Assembly (NCBI GenBank): GCA_938034905.1
Contig: CALHLF010000041.1
Span: forward strand, 1 to 55,927
Length of the DNA stretch: 55,927 bases
Reading direction: 5' to 3'
From: an uncultured bacterium
GTDB lineage: Bacteria > Dictyoglomota > Dictyoglomia > Dictyoglomales > Dictyoglomaceae
Below the pieces are notes generated by a model. The model did no database searches and was not told the origin of the DNA. It was given only the letters and a program-made list of their open reading frames with translations. The position numbers and the translations under genes are program-made. Each line of letters starts with the position of its first letter. Position 1 is the stretch's first letter. Of the stretch, positions 39,338 to 49,559 are shown piece after piece.

Positions 39338-40634
39338 TTATTATTTTTCCCTCTTTAAAAACTATCTTACCCTTTACTATGGTTAAAACAGGCCATCCCC
39401 TAAGACGCCATCCCTTAAAAGGGGTATTTTTACCTTTTGAAAAGAATTCCAACGGATTTACAACTTTTTCTTTTTTCAAATCAATAACAGTTAGATTTGC
39501 TATATTCCCCTTCTCTAAGGGAATGTAAGGAATATTAAGAATTTTTGATGGATTATAACTTATCTTTTTTAAAAGTTTAGAAAGGTTTAGTTTTCTAGAT
39601 AAATGGCCGTAAGTTATTATTAAAGGAATTATGGTTTCTAAGCCTGATATTCCAAATTCTGCAAGATTATATTCCTTCAACTTGTCATCCTGATGGTGGG
39701 GAGCATGATCCGAAACAATAGCATCAATAATGTCTTCTTCTAAAGCTTTCCATAAAGCTTCTTGATCTTCTTTCGTTCTTAGAGGGGGGTTTACCTTCGT
39801 ATCTGGATCATAGTTTGTTTCTTTAACATAATCTTCAGTTAGAATTAGATGATGAGGGGTTACCTCACAGGTCACTTTAATTCCATATTTCTTTGCCCAC
39901 TTTATCATCTCAATACTCTGCCAACAAGATACATGAGCAATATGTAATTTACCACCAGTCAATTGGGCTAAAAAAATGTCTCTTGCTACAATACTTGCCT
40001 CTGCAGTCCAAGGCATTCCCTTTAATCCTAAAATGGTAGCTGTTTTCCCCCAATTTATTGATCCCTCCTGGGTTAAATTGGTATCTTCACAATGCTCTAT
40101 TATTGGAGTATTAAACATTTTTGAATATTCTAAAGCACATCTTAAAATCTCACTATTCATAACACAATCTCCATCATCAGAGAAACCTACAACACCTGCT
40201 GAATACATGTCTCCCATCTCTGACAATTCTTTTCCTTCTCTTTCCTTTGTAATTGTTCCAATGGGATATATATTAACAAGACCTATTTCCTGTGATCTTT
40301 TATAAATATATTCAATAGAAGATCTCTGATCCAAAGGAGGAGAGGTATTTGGCATGCATGCTATAGAGGTAAATCCACCTGCTACAGCAGACATACTTCC
40401 TGATAACAAATTTTCTTTCCATTCAAAACCTGGCTCCCTTAAATGGGTATGGATATCCGTTAAACTGGGAACTATTATTTTCCCTTCCCCATCAATTATT
40501 TCCTGAAGATCATCAATTTTCAGATTTTCTCCTATATCCTTTATTATTCCATTTTCTATAAAGATATCCTTTTTTTCTTCAAAATCTTTTTCAGGATGAA
40601 TTAAGAGAGCATTACGAATAAGAAGTTTCATCAA
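39321..40634 (-). CDS. pyrC: Dihydroorotase
   Basis: 437 residues, class I type. Metal-binding [16 protein letters not shown] (about 58-73), the later His ligands in IIEHCED and LHIAHVSC, and the catalytic Asp in VSDHAPHH. It cyclises carbamoyl-aspartate. It overlaps pyrB by 23 bases. Confidence 0.96.
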
Positions 40635-41565
40635 TTCTCCCTCCTCCTAATAATAGATAAAGAAGTGCCATTCTTACAACAACTCCATTTCTCACTTGCT
40701 CATTTATGACTGAGTAGATGCTATCTGCAACCTCTGAAGATATTTCTACCCCTCTATTCATAGGACCAGGATGCATAACTAAAACATCTGGCTTTGCTTT
40801 TTTTAGTCTTTCAGGGGTAATTCCAAATAAAAAATGATATTCTCTTAAAGATGGGAAAAGTCCCTTCTTTTGTCTTTCTAATTGGAGTCTTAAAATATAG
40901 ATGATATCTGCATCTTCTAAAACTTTATCAATATCATAATTTATCTCAACTCCTAAGTCTTCTATTCCTGGTGGAATTAATGTACTTGGTCCACATATCT
41001 TTACCTCACTTCCCAAAATTTTCCAGGCATAAATATTAGAGCGGGCAACTCTACTATGCATAACATCTCCTATTATGGCAATTTTTAAATTGTCTAATCT
41101 TTTCTTTTTTTCAAATACTGTAAATACATCTAAAAGGGCTTGAGTAGGATGTTCATGCATACCATCTCCTGCATTAATTACAGAACAAGTCAGGTTTTTT
41201 GCAAGAAAATAAGGAACTCCTGAAGAATTGTGCCTTACAATAAGGGCATCTATTCCCATTGCCTCCAAGGTTTTTACTGTATCCAATAAACTTTCTCCCT
41301 TTTGAACACTACTTACAGAGACAGAGATACTGATAGTATCTGCACTTAAATATTTTGCTGCCAATTCAAAAGAAGACCTAGTCCTAGTACTGGGCTCGTA
41401 GAATAGAGTACAGATGGTTCTTCCTCTAAGAGTAGGTACCTTTTTTATAGTTCTATTTAGAATCTCCTTCATAGAAATTGCAGTTTCTATGATCAATTCT
41501 ATCTCCTCTTTTGTTAAACCCTCTATACATAAAAAATCTTTATATTTCCATACCATATTTATCAC
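40612..41565 (-). CDS. pyrB: Aspartate carbamoyltransferase catalytic subunit
   Basis: 317 residues. Carbamoyl-phosphate site [16 protein letters not shown] (about 54-69), [14 protein letters not shown] and the aspartate-site segment [10 protein letters not shown]. There is no pyrI regulatory gene in the operon. It follows pyrR by one base. Confidence 0.97.
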
Positions 41566-41566
41566 C

Positions 41567-42118
<552 letters not shown>

Positions 42119-42140
42119 TTAAATTTTCCTCCTTTCAATA

Positions 42141-42180
42141 AAAAAGCAGGCTTTACCCTTTTTAGGGTAGCCTGCTTTTT
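42141..42180 (-). terminator. Rho-independent attenuator terminator before pyrR
   Basis: In the minus-strand RNA AAAAAGCAGGCTACCCT and AGGGTAAAGCCTGC pair, followed by TTTTTT. The stem is GC-rich with a U-tail, an ideal intrinsic terminator within the pyrR leader, about 20 bases before the ribosome binding site. Confidence 0.9.
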
Positions 42181-42220
42181 CCCAATTTTATAGAATTTCT
42201 TTATCAACTTTCCTCCCTTT

Positions 42221-42239
42221 TTAGCCTCACAGGGCTAAA
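42221..42239 (-). promoter_or_regulatory. PyrR-binding RNA loop (anti-antiterminator)
   Basis: Minus strand TTTAGCCCTGTGAGGCTAA: stem TTAGCC/GGCTAA with the CTGTGAGG loop closely matching the known PyrR recognition loop (CCxGxGAGGC). It is about 10 bases from the predicted transcription start and upstream of the terminator. Confidence 0.78.
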
Positions 42240-42253
42240 TTAAAGGCCTACAT

Positions 42254-42282
42254 ATTATAGAAGAGATATAAGGTTATGTCAA
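42254..42282 (-). promoter_or_regulatory. Consensus promoter of the pyr operon
   Basis: Minus strand TTGACA (42277-42282), 17-base spacer, TATAAT (42254-42259), both perfect. The leader to the pyrR GTG is about 130 bases and holds the attenuator. Confidence 0.9.
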
Positions 42283-42307
42283 TAAAAAGATATCTGCACC
42301 AAAATGA

Positions 42308-42334
42308 CAAAAAATTCCAAAAAATATCAAAAAT
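42308..42334. repeat. Three A-tracts phased at 10 bp upstream of the sugar-transporter operon
   Basis: CAAAAAAT at 42308-42315 and 42318-42325, and CAAAAAT at 42328-42334, begin exactly 10 bases apart. Phased A-tracts give intrinsic DNA curvature; alternatively the repeats may be direct-repeat sites for the AraC-type response regulator encoded downstream. Confidence 0.5.
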
Positions 42335-42400
42335 TTTATATTAATTTGTAAAAATTTGAGATTTATAGTTTAGGTAAAATTTAATTAAGGAGGGTTTACT

Positions 42401-43653
42401 ATGAGAGCTCTTAAAAAATGTCCCTTCTTTTCCTTGTATTCCTCTTACTTTTTTCTCTCTTTATAGGATCTGCTCAAGAAAAAATTAAGATTAGAGCGGT
42501 AACATATTTCACAGGGGAAGATCCATGGACAAATGTATGGCAAAATGTAATAAAAGAATTCATGAAAAAATATCCAAATGTAGAAATTATTGATGAAGCT
42601 ACACCTACCGCTGGAGATTTAATTAGAACAAAGATGAAAACAGATTTTGCCTCAGGAAATGAACCAGACGTAGCTTTCTTTTTTATAGGAGCAGATGCAG
42701 AGCCTTTGCTAAAGACAGGAAAAGTATACACCTGGGATGAAGATTTAGAAAAAGATAAAGATTGGAGCAAGAATTTTTATAAAGGAGCTTTAGAGTTTGC
42801 AAGATATAAAGGTTCTATAAAAAATTATGATGGAAAAATTTATGCTCTTCCCACTATTGGGTTTTATGAAGGACTATTTGTAAATAAAGATTTGTTCGAT
42901 AAATATAATTTAGAGCTTCCTGTAACCTGGGATAAATTATTAAAGGCTATTAGTGTTTTAAAAGCTAAGAATATAATTCCTATAGCAGGATCTATTCTTG
43001 ATTCCTACTATTTAATTGAAACTTTAATCCTCTCAGCAGGAGGTCCAGAGGGACATAATACCCCCTTCCATCCATCTTGGGAGACAGGTCTAAATTATAT
43101 AAAAAGATTATATCTTCTAAATGCATTTCCAAAAGACTCATTAACTCTTAAAGATGAACAAGCTAGAGAATTATTTTACAATAAAAAAGCTGGAATGATG
43201 ATAAATGGATCCTGGTGTGTGGGGGGATTAAAGGATAAAGTAAATACGGTAATAATGCCTGTACCTGTAATTCTAGGAGGTAAAGCACATCCAACAGATA
43301 TAATTGGAGGATTTGGTTCTGGATGGTATGTAAGTAAAGAACTTAATGAAAAAAAGAATGGTATACCTGTTAAATTTGTAAAATATATAACTTCTCCTGA
43401 GGTTGAAGCAAAATTTATTGCTATAGGCGGAGTTCCTGCTATCAAATGTAAAGTTGAAAATGTATCACCTGCTGCCCAAAGTGGATATGATATGATGGAA
43501 AAAGCAAGAACTGTTTCCATGCCTATAGATGCTCAAATTAATCCTGAAGCTTTTACCTATATAAGAACAAATCTTGCATATGTTGTAACTGGGAAGAAAA
43601 CAGCAAAAGTCTTATTATCCGAAGCAAGAAAAATTCACGAAGAAGCCAAATGA
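42401..43653 (+). pseudogene. Sugar ABC transporter solute-binding protein; start region carries an apparent 1-base frameshift
   Basis: The well-placed ATG at 42401 (AAGGAGGG 6-8 bases upstream) opens a frame that stops after 21 codons. The gene's main frame (-1) begins at an ATG at 42418 without a ribosome binding site and encodes 411 residues. Adding one A to the A6 run at 42413-42418 joins MRALKK to MSLLFLVFLLLFSLFIGSA, a perfect type I signal peptide without lipobox. The rest is an intact family 1 binding protein (VTYFTGEDPWTNVWQNVI, then GKIYALPTIGFYEGLFVNK). The protein may still be made by slippage or internal initiation. Confidence 0.8.
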
Positions 43654-43670
43654 TAGGATGTTAATTAATG

Positions 43671-43697
43671 AAAGGGGTGCCTATAGGCACCCCTTTT
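43671..43697 (+). terminator. Perfect 26-bp palindromic hairpin after the binding-protein gene
   Basis: AAAGGGGTGCCTA (43671-43683) and TAGGCACCCCTTT (43684-43696) are exact inverted copies, then TAAATTTT. It lies between the binding-protein stop and the permease start, mirroring the oppA-oppB hairpin. Probably partial termination or 3' end protection. Confidence 0.82.
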
Positions 43698-43724
43698 AAA
43701 TTTTATCAAAAGGAGGTTTAAAAA

Positions 43725-44594
43725 TTGTTTTCTCAAACAAAAAAATATGTATTGATTTTTTTAATTCCATCGTTAATTTTAATATCTACATTTGTTTATT
43801 ATCCTTTATTTTCTACAATATTTTACAGTTTTTATAATTGGAGAGATTTTTCAAATTTCAGGAAATTTATAGGCTTAGGAAATTATGAAAGATTAATCAA
43901 AGATGTTGCTGTTCATAAAGCAATTATTAATACATTTATTATGTTAATTACTGTTATACTATTTCAGGTGGGATTTGCTCTTATTCTTGCTCTAATGGTG
44001 CATTATTTACAAAAAGGGTATAAATTCTTTAGAACTGTTTATTTTTTCCCTGTAACTATTTCTGGCACAGCTATTGGGCTTATGTTTTATTTGGCATATG
44101 GTTATGAGTACGGATTTTTAAATTCAATTTTAACCTTCTTTGGAAAAGATAAAATAATTTGGATAACAGAAAATTCAGCATTATTTATGGTATTAATTCC
44201 AATAATATGGCAATATGTTGGATTTTATTTTGTTATATTTTTAGCTGCTCTCTCTAAAATTCCTCAAGATTTTTATGACTCTGCCTTAATTGATGGTGCA
44301 TCAAAAATTTATAGTGCAGTATATATTTCTATTCCTCTGATATGGGATGTCATAGCAGTATCTCTCTCCCTTGCAATTGTAGGAACTTTTAAAGTCTTTG
44401 ATATTGTATATGTAATAACAGGGGGAGGACCAATGAATGCAAGTCAAGTTTTAGGAACTTATCTACACAGTGTAGCTTTTACTGGACAAAACCAAGGTTA
44501 TGGTTCAGCAATTGGTACACTGATTATTTTTTTAGGTCTTTTATTATCTGTAATTACTAATAAGTTTTTGAAGAGAGACAGAATAACCTATTAA
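43725..44594 (+). CDS. Sugar ABC transporter permease, MalF/UgpA type
   Basis: 289 residues. Six transmembrane helices, the first at about 8-28, and the EAA loop DSALIDGASKIYSAVYISIP. The start codon is TTG at 43725, supported by AAAAGGAGG 7-8 bases upstream; no in-frame ATG precedes the first helix. It pairs with the MalG-type permease downstream. The ATPase (MsmK/UgpC-like) must come from elsewhere. Confidence 0.92.
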   Translation: MFSQTKKYVLIFLIPSLILISTFVYYPLFSTIFYSFYNWRDFSNFRKFIGLGNYERLIKDVAVHKAIINTFIMLITVILFQVGFALILALMVHYLQKGYKFFRTVYFFPVTISGTAIGLMFYLAYGYEYGFLNSILTFFGKDKIIWITENSALFMVLIPIIWQYVGFYFVIFLAALSKIPQDFYDSALIDGASKIYSAVYISIPLIWDVIAVSLSLAIVGTFKVFDIVYVITGGGPMNASQVLGTYLHSVAFTGQNQGYGSAIGTLIIFLGLLLSVITNKFLKRDRITY

Positions 44595-44606
44595 GGAGGT
44601 TTAATT

Positions 44607-45446
44607 ATGAAAGGAGAAAAATTTTCTATTCTAAATGTTTTATCTTATCTTATATTAATCCTTTGGGCAATATCTACAATATCTCCCTTTTTATGGGTTA
44701 TAAATAATTCCTTTAAGACTACCTCGGAAATTTTATTAAATTCCTTAAGTTTTCCCAAAGAACTCTCCTTTAGAAACTACCAGCAATTGGGCAATTATGG
44801 TAATATAAATATGTTTAAAGGTTTCTTTAATAGCTTTATAATCTCAGGAAGTGTTGTCTTATTAGTTTTATTTATTTCAAGTTTAGCTTCTTTTGTTCTC
44901 TCAAGATTTGATTTTAGAATCAATAAAACATTTAATTCCTTTGCTACTTTAGCAATGTTAGTTCCTACTTTTTCTATTGTTATTCCTGCCCTTATTTTGG
45001 TAAGAAAATTAGGAATAAGTGGCAGTTATCTATCTTTAATTTTACCTCAAACAGCCCTCAATTTACCCTTTGCTATTTTAGTCTTATCAAGCTTTATGAT
45101 AACTCTTCCTAAGGAATTAGAAGAATCTGCTCTTATTGATGGTGCTAATTTTTTAACTATTCTTTTCAAAATTATATTACCCCTCTCCATCCCAGGTATC
45201 GTCACTGTAGCAATTTTCGTTTTTTTATGGTCTTATAATGATTTATTCATGTCCATGATTTTAATCCCAATAAGAGAAAAGCAACCTATATGTGTTCTTT
45301 TGTCCTTAGTATCTAGTATTTATGGTACAAACTATGGAGCAATGATGTCTGCACTTGTTATTACTATTATCCCAGTTCTTATTTTATATATCTCTCTTCA
45401 AGAGTTTGTAATTAAGGGATTGACAGCAGGTGCAATCAAGGGTTAG
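44607..45446 (+). CDS. Sugar ABC transporter permease, MalG/UgpE type
   Basis: 279 residues. Six helices, N-terminal ISPFLWVINNSFKTTSEIL (typical of the MalG branch), EAA loop ESALIDGANFLTILFKIILP and C-terminal EFVIKGLTAGAIKG. It follows the first permease by 12 bases with AAGGAGG ahead of its ATG. Confidence 0.93.
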   Translation: MKGEKFSILNVLSYLILILWAISTISPFLWVINNSFKTTSEILLNSLSFPKELSFRNYQQLGNYGNINMFKGFFNSFIISGSVVLLVLFISSLASFVLSRFDFRINKTFNSFATLAMLVPTFSIVIPALILVRKLGISGSYLSLILPQTALNLPFAILVLSSFMITLPKELEESALIDGANFLTILFKIILPLSIPGIVTVAIFVFLWSYNDLFMSMILIPIREKQPICVLLSLVSSIYGTNYGAMMSALVITIIPVLILYISLQEFVIKGLTAGAIKG

Positions 45447-45477
45447 ACTTTGAAAAGTTTTATAGGGGGATGATAGT

Positions 45478-46257
45478 ATTTTAAAGGTCTTAATCGTTGA
45501 GGATGAACCTATAATTTGTAATGGATTAAAAAAATTCATTAATTGGGATAAATTTAACTGTACATTGGTGGAAACAGCGGAAGATGCTATAGATGGTCTA
45601 TATCTTATAGAGAAATTGAAGCCAGAAATTATAATAACTGATATAGTAATGCCTGGAATGAGTGGATTAGAAATGATTAAAAGAATTAAAAGAAAATCTC
45701 ATAATGGGAAAATAATAGTTATTACAGCATACAGAAATCTTATTTATGCTCAAGAGGCAATTAAACTTGGAGTATTTAGACTACTTTTTAAACCAATAAA
45801 AATTGAGGAATTAGAAGAGAGCATAAAAGATGCCTTGGAAGAAATGAATATAGAGTTAAATTTAAATGATTTGGATTTCAAAGAAAAAATAATTGAAATT
45901 CTAAAATCAGCAACTCATAAAGATAATTTTAGTTTTCTTACAAAAAGAATTATAGAATATACAACTCAAAATTATAACAATAAAAATTTAACCTTGAAAG
46001 ATTTATCAAAAAATTTCTATGTTAGTTATTGGCATTTATCAAAGATTATAAAGAAAGAGTTAAACTTAAGTTTTAATCAGTTAGTTAATATTATAAGAAT
46101 AGAAAAAGCAAAAACACTTTTAACTTTTCCTAAATACAAAATTAATGAGATTGCAGAAATGGTAGGGTATAACGATACTACTTATTTTTGGAAAATCTTT
46201 AGAAAGATGACGGGAAAAACTCCTCGTGAATATAGAGATGAAAAATCTTTACTATAG
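45478..46257 (+). CDS. AraC-type response regulator (YesN-like) with no canonical start codon
   Basis: About 259 residues. A complete receiver domain (LKVLIVEDEP, phospho-acceptor Asp in IIITDIVMPGMSG, Thr in VITAY, Lys in LFKPI) and a C-terminal AraC HTH pair (LTLKDLSKNFYVSYWHLSKI and INEIAEMVGYNDTTYFWKIF). The receiver begins right after a TAG stop at 45463. No ATG, GTG or TTG lies between; the only candidate in frame with a spaced SD (GGGGGA) is ATT at 45478. Alternatively an ATG at 45470 would enter the frame if the T4 run at 45479-45482 had one more T. Confidence 0.78.
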   Translation: MLKVLIVEDEPIICNGLKKFINWDKFNCTLVETAEDAIDGLYLIEKLKPEIIITDIVMPGMSGLEMIKRIKRKSHNGKIIVITAYRNLIYAQEAIKLGVFRLLFKPIKIEELEESIKDALEEMNIELNLNDLDFKEKIIEILKSATHKDNFSFLTKRIIEYTTQNYNNKNLTLKDLSKNFYVSYWHLSKIIKKELNLSFNQLVNIIRIEKAKTLLTFPKYKINEIAEMVGYNDTTYFWKIFRKMTGKTPREYRDEKSLL

Positions 46258-47850
46258 TCTTTCTCTTCGAAATAAACTCTTTATTATCTTCTTTATAATT
46301 ATTCTTGTACCATCTATAGCTTTTATATAGAGGAAAAAGTAGAAGATCTCATAAAATTTACTCAAGAGATACTATATAATGATTTTCTCTATAAAGTTAA
46401 TATTTCTATTTATAATATCTCCTCATCAAATAATATTATCTTTTATGATTTTAAAAGAAAGGTTGAAGAGTTTCTAGGTTCAATACTTTTCTCAAGAAAC
46501 GATATAATATCCATTTCATTCAAATTCTCTTCTAAAAACTTTTTATTTAGTGTTTCCCGTTCCTCTCAATTATTCCCTGAAGAATTAATAAAAACCTTAT
46601 ATTCTCAAAGTTTAATTTTAAAAGGGAAACCATTAATCTATCTCAATATTTCTTCCCTGAAAGAGCCGGAAATTTTTATCTCAAGAATCGTTTATGATAG
46701 AAATACCCTAAGAGAGATAGGTTTATTAATAGTCAAAATAAACTCTTATATAATATTCGATAGTACAAAATTCTTACAGGATATTAATTGTAAGGATATA
46801 ATTTTTTCTAATGAAAATAGAATAATTTTTTCCTCAAATGAGAAAGAAAACATTGGATCTAAAATAAATATAAAAAATACCAAAGATGTCATATCTCTAA
46901 GTAAAAAAATCAGGAATTTAAATTGGTATATTTACTTGTTAATTGATGAAAAACAACTTTTAGCGCAAATTTATCCTATTAGTAAATTATTATTTTTTAT
47001 ATTTATTTTAGTCATTTCTATTCTTTTTGTTATTATTAACTTTATATATAGAGATATACTTTTTCCTATAAATACCCTTATAGAAAGTATGAGAAGGGTA
47101 GAAAAGGGAGATTTAAAAATAAATTTAGAAACTCAAAGGAAAGACGAGTTAGGTTTTCTTATAGAATCCTTTAACAGTGCTATCTCTAAGATAAACAATC
47201 TTATAGATACAGTCTATAAAGCTCAAATTATTGCTAAAGACTCTCAGATTAAAGCACTACAATCTAAAATAAATCCTCATTTTATCTTTAATACTTTAGA
47301 AATGATAAGTTGGAAGGCAAGATTTTCAGGTGCAGATGAAGTTACAGAAATGATAGATGCCTTTTCTAACATACTTGCAGCCCATATGAATAAAGAAGAT
47401 AAACTCCTTATAGAAATTAAAGAAGAAATCAAATATTTAGACAATTATATATATTTAATGTCAAAAAGAGTAAATTTTGAATATATAAAAGAGATTGACG
47501 AATCTTTATTAAATCATAAGATACCTGTTCTTATTATTCAGCCAATAGTTGAAAATGTCTTTAAGCATGCTTTTAAATTTAAAAATAGAAAGATGAAAAA
47601 CATTTTAATAATTAAAGTTTTAAAAGAGAATAACGATTTAGTGATATTAGTGGAGGATAATGGAAAAGGGATAGAAAAGAATAACTTAAATCTTTTAATA
47701 TCCTCCTTAGATAAGGACAACGAGAACAGAGGCTTAACAAATGTCAATAGAAGAATAAAACTACTTTTTGGAGAAAACTATGGTTTAATCATTGATAGTG
47801 AAAAATATAAAGGAACATCTGTAAAAATAAAATTACCTTCTATACAATAG
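46238..47850 (+). pseudogene. Sensor histidine kinase (YesM-like) interrupted by a 1-base frameshift in TM1
   Basis: ATG at 46238 (inside the regulator gene) encodes MKNLYYSLSLRNKLFI and a first transmembrane helix ending SIAFI, then TAG at 46328. One extra T in the T4 run at 46321-46324 joins it to the long frame (YIEEKVEDLIKF...) that runs to 47850. The repaired protein has about 537 residues: sensor domain, second helix near 47000, HAMP (LESMRRVEKGDLK-type), phospho-acceptor His in KINPHFIFNTLEMISW, and the ATPase motifs QPIVENVFKHAF and EDNGKGI. As written, only a TM1 peptide and an N-truncated kinase could be made. Confidence 0.85.
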
Positions 47851-48691
47851 GAAAAGTTTTATAAGGGCCTGGTCTTTTCATTTTTTCAGTAGTTATTTCC
47901 GCTGCTTTCTTCAAGGCTTCTTTATATCCCAAATCTCTATGGATAAGATACGCAGACATACATGTATCTCCTCTTCCTGTTCTTCCCTCTAAGGTCCACT
48001 CTCCAAATTTTTCCTCGTAAATTTCTCCATTTACCCATAGGATTACACCATCCTTATGAGTTAATAAAATTTCCTTTGATCCCCATTTCGATATTAAATT
48101 TATAGCCTTTTTTAAATCCCCCTCTCCTGATAGAATCTCTGCCTCTTTAGAATCTATCTTAAATACATCTATTAAAGGTAAATACTCTTGTTTTTTCTCC
48201 CAATCTTTGTAAATCATTTTTCCGCCTTCATCTATATTTCTTAAGAAACCTTGAGCATCAAGGCCAAGAATCTTTCCTCTCTTTCTTAATTCTTCAATAA
48301 GTTCTTCAGGAAATTCACCATACCAAAGAGGAGTTATATGAATTATTTCCCCTTCGATCTCCTTAATATCTTCTAACTTAAAAGGATGTGATCTTTCCAT
48401 CATTATGCTAATTCTGTCATCGGGATTATCTGAAGGCATAATATTCTTAATAGATGTTGTTCTTTCAGAAGGATACCATATCAATCTTATTCCATAATCT
48501 TCCATTTCCTTAAATATGTTTTTATCTTTTAGATTTACCTTTGTATAAACAGTAGTATCCCAACCATAAGACCTTGCTACAAAGGATCCATAGAAAACTC
48601 CTCCTCCTGGAATAATTTGTTCCTTTCCCTTTATCACATTTATATCCTTAGATACATGTCCTATAAAGATAATGGTTTTTTGTAGACCCAT
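47840..48691 (-). CDS. PfkB-family carbohydrate kinase
   Basis: 283 residues from ATG 48691, which has AGGAGG 7 bases upstream; a longer frame reaching 48790 overlaps the divergent gene and is rejected. Ribokinase-family motifs: GGGVFYGSFVARSYG near the N-terminus and the catalytic EGRTGRGDTCMSAYL (Asp base) near the C-terminus. ERTTSIKNI and LGLDAQGFLR resemble the archaeal/plant inositol kinase branch, but the substrate is uncertain. Its last 11 bases overlap the sensor kinase gene. Confidence 0.82.
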   Translation of the reverse strand: MGLQKTIIFIGHVSKDINVIKGKEQIIPGGGVFYGSFVARSYGWDTTVYTKVNLKDKNIFKEMEDYGIRLIWYPSERTTSIKNIMPSDNPDDRISIMMERSHPFKLEDIKEIEGEIIHITPLWYGEFPEELIEELRKRGKILGLDAQGFLRNIDEGGKMIYKDWEKKQEYLPLIDVFKIDSKEAEILSGEGDLKKAINLISKWGSKEILLTHKDGVILWVNGEIYEEKFGEWTLEGRTGRGDTCMSAYLIHRDLGYKEALKKAAEITTEKMKRPGPYKTFPIV

Positions 48692-48788
48692 GTTTTTTCC
48701 TCCTGACAAATATTTATTAAATTCTAATCTTATATTATAATAAAAATCAAGATCTTTTCTTATTTTTGTATAGTTTTGGAGGTGAAAC

Positions 48789-49559
48789 ATGAAGGAAAGA
48801 AGAGAACCTGTGGTTTTAGAGAATCTGGGACAAAAAATCTTTGGGGTGATTCATATTCCTGAAAAGATTCCTGCTCCCTTTGTGTTATTATGTCACGGAT
48901 TTACTGGAACAAAAATTGAACCCCACAGAATATTTGTAAATACTGCTGAAGCTTTAACAAAAGAAGGTATAGGAGCATTAAGAATAGATTTTAGAGGATC
49001 TGGAGATAGTGAGGGTTCTTTTAAAGACATGACTGTGGAAGGAGAGGTATCTGATGCGATAGTTGCATTAAATTATCTATCCAATAGTGACTTCGTAGAT
49101 AAGGAAAGAATTGGAATTCTGGGATTATCTATGGGAGGTGCAGTAGCAAGTTTGACCTCAGGAAGAAATGACTTAGTAAAATCCTGTGTTCTTTGGGCTG
49201 CAGTATGTCATTTTAATATATTCTTTAATAGATCCCCTGAAGAAATGCAAAAAATAAGAGACTATGGAGATTTTATTGATCTTGGGGGAAATCCTGTGGG
49301 AAAAAAATTCTTGGCAGAAATTATCAATATAAAACCATTAGAAGAGATAAAAAAGAGGAAAATACCTGTGCTTATAATTCATGGAAGTGGAGACTTATTA
49401 GTTCCAATTCAACATGCGTACGACTATTACAATGGACTTAAGGATACTCATAAAGTAGAGTTAGAAATTATAGAAGGAGCAGATCACACTTTCAACTCAA
49501 TAGAATGGGAGAAAAAAGTTATAGAAAAAACGGTAGACTGGTTTAAGAATACTTTATAG
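48789..49559 (+). CDS. Alpha/beta hydrolase (esterase, feruloyl-esterase-like)
   Basis: 256 residues. Oxyanion segment LLCHGFTGTKIEPHR (about 37-51), nucleophile elbow GLSMGGA (about 116), Asp in HGSGDLLVP and catalytic His in EGADHTF. No signal peptide, so it is cytoplasmic. The family includes cinnamoyl/feruloyl esterases that trim plant polysaccharide fragments. A GGAGGTG ribosome binding site precedes the ATG. It is divergent from the PfkB kinase and close to the sugar transporter. Confidence 0.82.
   Translation: MKERREPVVLENLGQKIFGVIHIPEKIPAPFVLLCHGFTGTKIEPHRIFVNTAEALTKEGIGALRIDFRGSGDSEGSFKDMTVEGEVSDAIVALNYLSNSDFVDKERIGILGLSMGGAVASLTSGRNDLVKSCVLWAAVCHFNIFFNRSPEEMQKIRDYGDFIDLGGNPVGKKFLAEIINIKPLEEIKKRKIPVLIIHGSGDLLVPIQHAYDYYNGLKDTHKVELEIIEGADHTFNSIEWEKKVIEKTVDWFKNTL

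Follow-up and report, generated by a model that had tools for sequence, protein, structure and literature searches.

Why three functionally linked genes should each appear to be one base short, in a stretch of bacterial DNA that otherwise reads cleanly, is the question raised by positions 42401-47850 (forward strand) of the window, i.e. of the whole 55,927-nucleotide contig (C41) analysed here. The contig is part of a draft genome (G000; 80 contigs, 1.84 Mb) of an uncultured bacterium of the Dictyoglomaceae, to judge from genome sizes and gene content a Dictyoglomus-like thermophile. Five genes make up the region: one for a solute-binding protein, two for ABC permeases, and one each for a response regulator of the YesN type and a sensor kinase of the YesM type. 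Together they form an ABC importer of the sugar type that is paired with a dedicated YesM/YesN two-component system. The Pfam domains are complete (SBP_bac_1; two BPD_transp_1; Response_reg with an AraC-type HTH, HTH_18; HAMP, His_kinase and HATPase_c), and gene order and domains match those of the YesM/YesN systems that accompany ABC carbohydrate importers, from which the module differs in that its sensor and binding-protein genes are broken in the G000 assembly. A first-pass annotation had located the three missing bases in homopolymers, namely an A6 tract in the binding protein and a T4 tract in each of the regulator and the kinase. The whole module is also present in a congeneric genome, G001, at 72-76% nucleotide identity and with all frames open (418, 289, 278, 262 and 570 aa), so that each claim of a missing base can be tested against an intact ortholog; the binding protein and the permeases are found in a further genome, G005. 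The three genes turn out to differ, only one of them being short by a single base, and we consider it probable that a recent loss of the binding protein and the sensor stands beside a conserved non-AUG start codon in an undamaged regulator.

The regulator gene (45478-46257) is complete in frame from an ATT codon at 45478-45480, which would be its non-canonical start and which lies 8 nt after a GGGGG Shine-Dalgarno (SD) sequence (45465-45469). In G001 the same motif is followed, again after 8 nt, by an ATA, and the length from the SD to the second codon is equal in the two genomes, which does away with the lesion proposed for the T4 tract (45479-45482). A spacing of 8 nt falls within the modal range of the lineage (7-9 nt). 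A gapped alignment (MAFFT-style) places one gap between the SD and the start; the gap-free register keeps the SD and the start column together, and the regulator orthologs from outside the group (Firmicutes) begin at the ATT column, with ATG and in one instance with TTG. Had the regulator truly lost a T, its earlier start would be the ATG at 45470, which is out of frame with the gene and which one more T would indeed bring into frame. However, this ATG abuts the SD at zero spacing and the corresponding GTG of G001 sits inside it, so that neither codon can be used for efficient initiation; as G001 likewise has no extra base between the SD and the second codon, and the ATT column is where the outside orthologs begin too, a lost T is very unlikely.

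The first canonical codon in frame, TTG 45565, lies 29 codons into the gene. The sequence features expected of a near-cognate (AUU/AUA/AUC) start are found here, namely no usable AUG, GUG or UUG at the homologous start, a strong SD at normal spacing and conservation of the codon; the non-AUG start is kept in two species (ATT in G000, ATA in G001), which provide the only two orthologs of the regulator available in the genus. The case is one of position and conservation rather than of codon counts: when the codons next to strong SDs were roughly tallied by class in genes lacking a canonical start, four ATH stood against six TTH codons, which was non-discriminating. The anti-SD was assumed, a search of the G000 draft for the 16S 3' end pattern having returned no match, and the predicted local RNA structure at the regulator start of the window did not exceed chance. 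On this evidence we infer that ribosomes translate the regulator from AUU, and from AUA in the sister species.

Starts of this type are known, the textbook case being infC, with AUU or AUA; both infC and pcnB start with AUU in E. coli. Initiation of the regulator would be low and probably sensitive to IF3, as it is for infC, and the level of the regulator would be low in turn. The likeness to infC and pcnB of E. coli and to infC of S. aureus lies in a near-cognate AUU or AUA codon after a strong SD, with low initiation; the product differs, being neither IF3 nor a poly(A) polymerase, but the response regulator of a sugar importer, for which dependence on IF3 is presumed. In Staphylococcus aureus AUA starts are reported for infC, ccpN and citZ and an AUU start for cvfC1, and three such starts yielded, in reporters and in poor medium, approximately 10% of the AUG output (PMC13009471). 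The ccpN gene (AUA; PMC13009471) is a parallel in that it encodes a transcriptional regulator, and in that its non-canonical start is likewise conserved and preceded by a strong SD; the regulator family and the phylum differ, and the start described here is known from sequence alone. A further precedent is sigR of Streptomyces: its annotated GTG is part of the SD, mutation and N-terminal sequencing have proved a GTC to be the actual start, and the dose of the product is limited by IF3 (PMC5472188). The resemblance is to the annotatable GTG within the SD of G001, with the putative non-canonical start downstream; sigR differs in its codon, GTC rather than ATT or ATA, and in encoding a sigma factor. 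At the first two bases of the codon IF3 accepts Watson-Crick pairing alone, and at the third it rejects weak pairs (PMC10158994); by these rules AUU and AUA fit as weak starts.

The binding protein is a different matter. In its gene (SBP_bac_1; 42401-43653) the ATG at 42401 is preceded by a good SD (AAGGAGG), but opens a frame that closes after 21 codons, and the conserved body of 411 codons (42418-43653) starts one frame off, from ATG 42418. Nucleotide alignment with G001 gives one missing base, with the break falling at the start of the signal peptide; as the orthologs of G001 and G005 run in frame from their SD-linked ATG, the first-pass annotation was right that this gene is one base short. 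The break lies at an A6 tract (42413-42418) that neither ortholog possesses, and the 1-nt shift could be a base-calling error. Tracts of A or T of at least 6 nt number 232 in the window and more than 1,500 in a 410-kb sample of G000, and are so common in the genome that nothing unusual attaches to the tracts themselves. The binding-protein gene is separated from those of the intact permeases (43725-44594 and 44607-45446, each with BPD_transp_1) by a hairpin followed by a T-run (43673-43697; MFE -22.8 kcal/mol, z -3.7), the inverted repeat of which is present also in G001; it is likely a partial terminator and may set the level of the binding protein above that of the permeases. No RNA element was found in an Rfam search of 40000-49500.

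The frame of the kinase is also broken, yet not by the loss of a single base from the T4 tract at 46321-46324, as had been proposed. The gene opens at ATG 46238, before that of the regulator has ended, and its 5' fragment (46238-46330) encodes the first transmembrane segment (TM1) before reaching a TAG at 46328. By comparison with G001, 85 nt are missing, i.e. 28 codons plus one base. The loss takes away the last part of TM1 together with the first sensor helix (approximately 28 residues), a segment that the outside kinases possess. The rest of the kinase, with HAMP, His_kinase and HATPase_c, continues in another frame (46325-47850), in which no canonical start is available until TTG 46936. 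The junction (46316-46328) falls at short repeats of the AG(C/T)TTTT type, a pattern that in sequence terms is typical of replication slippage, and the deletion may have occurred as a first, in-frame loss of 84 nt followed by that of a T.

Past the breaks the module is well preserved. The dN/dS values against G001 are 0.048 for the binding protein, 0.085 and 0.038 for the first and second permease, 0.108 for the regulator and 0.18 for the kinase, with dS near saturation, and the copies of the window have diverged from outgroups no more than those of G001. Relaxed selection on the module was considered and rejected on the basis of the low dN/dS and of this outgroup comparison. With purifying selection strong past the breaks, both must be either very recent or errors of the assembly.

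How the module compares with the rest of the genome was assessed in a census of non-overlapping ORFs that covered 410 kb of G000 and approximately 257 orthologs. The earlier statement that the other genes of the window are clean is broadly right, in that none of the 51 ORFs with orthologs in G001 has a confirmed break outside the module, one hit at an edge having been checked. The sampled orthologs as a whole include two other broken genes, only a weak match to the many equal lesions elsewhere that the first-pass annotation had named as refuting its reading: on contig C13 (L166, about 1550) a permease gene has lost 56 nt out of frame by comparison with G001, and on contig C20 (L173, about 12590) the frame is broken at a G8 tract, the sole G run of eight in the sample. 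Five candidates for split genes were found in G001. Two breaks in five module genes, against two in approximately 250 other sampled genes, suggest a linked loss, even though the module was picked post hoc.

That homopolymers tune the module by programmed slippage or phase variation, one of the explanations first put forward, has in its favour only the closeness of the binding-protein break to an A6 tract. A switch of this kind is expected at a long and conserved homopolymer; A6 is absent from both G001 and G005, equal tracts (more than 1,500 in the 410-kb sample) run throughout intact genes, what struck the kinase was a deletion of 85 nt and the regulator is unbroken, so that we regard such a mechanism as highly improbable.

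Two other explanations have to be weighed. In one, both breaks are artefacts of sequencing or assembly, the binding protein and the kinase are intact in the organism and the regulator start alone is a biological oddity. The strength of purifying selection past the two breaks, with no further damage, speaks for it, as do the 56-nt deletion and the G8 break of the same sample and the draft state of an assembly in 80 contigs; however, an 85-nt deletion between repeats shorter than 10 nt is unusual for a base-calling or a repeat-collapse error, and approximately 250 other sampled orthologs are unbroken. A local patch of poor sequence, as invoked in the first-pass annotation, can account for the 1-nt shift, but not easily for the 85-nt deletion, nor for a regulator start that is found in two genomes. 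We would give artefacts somewhat less than an even chance.

In the other, the strain stopped using the sugar, and the binding protein and the kinase were struck in succession. Both genes carry a frame-breaking change that is absent from their orthologs, as expected of pseudogenes; the two breaks are independent and hit one pathway, and the short AGYTTTT repeats at the ends of the kinase deletion are typical of slippage in replication. Against it, dN/dS is not raised and no further lesions are seen, so that only a very recent event would fit, and the clustering is post hoc: five genes would be expected to take approximately 0.04 hits, but the choice was open among many modules. Pseudogenization by these successive steps is put at even odds. 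The earlier suggestion of recent decay is compatible with the state of the binding protein and the kinase, but wrong for the regulator, where a non-canonical start takes its place.

On the preferred reading, that of a recent loss, the binding protein would have been broken by the 1-nt frameshift and the sensor kinase by the 85-nt out-of-frame deletion, leaving the permeases and the regulator intact. The loss of either the binding protein or the sensor would make the other dispensable, and for this reason a very recent loss is consistent with a pathway struck twice. Both breaks would then be present in the cell and not only in the assembly.

The regulator is not the only gene of the lineage to start in this way. 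The start of infC is ATA in all five genomes in which the gene was found (L196-L200), approximately 8 nt after a GGAGG core. A gene of the flavodoxin family (contig C6, L159:9595) starts with ATT in G000 and in G006 (L242), with ATG in G002-G004 and with TTG in G001, and that for a 2-oxoacid oxidoreductase beta subunit (contig C4, L158:19290) starts with ATA within the last part of the alpha gene, its relatives having ATG or GTG. Together with the regulator, AUU or AUA starts amount to about 4 of the approximately 257 sampled orthologs, infC included; the genes lacking a canonical start in this set are the same four, the deleted kinase and one ABC ATPase. The latter (contig C7, L160:13362, reverse strand; L254 and L255) has no canonical start codon in any one of three congeneric genomes, in all of which the gene upstream ends in NTG GGG TAA (GTG, TTG or ATG) with a -1 frame overlap; in two related genomes the ATPase has a separate ATG. 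A -1 frameshift fusion or a restart of translation is possible in this case.

The start of the regulator is the only part of the module with wider interest; the two breaks are nothing out of the ordinary, being either lesions of recent date or errors of assembly. A regulator gene that seems frameshifted can instead carry a weak start codon that is conserved, and the response regulator described here joins the few bacterial genes known to start with AUU or AUA. It is tempting, but rather doubtful at present, to extend this to the lineage as a whole, which would use such starts unusually often beyond infC, setting low or IF3-responsive protein levels lineage-wide, with gene finders missing them or mis-calling them as frameshifts; in deep-branching thermophiles, counts of AUU and AUA starts may be too low.
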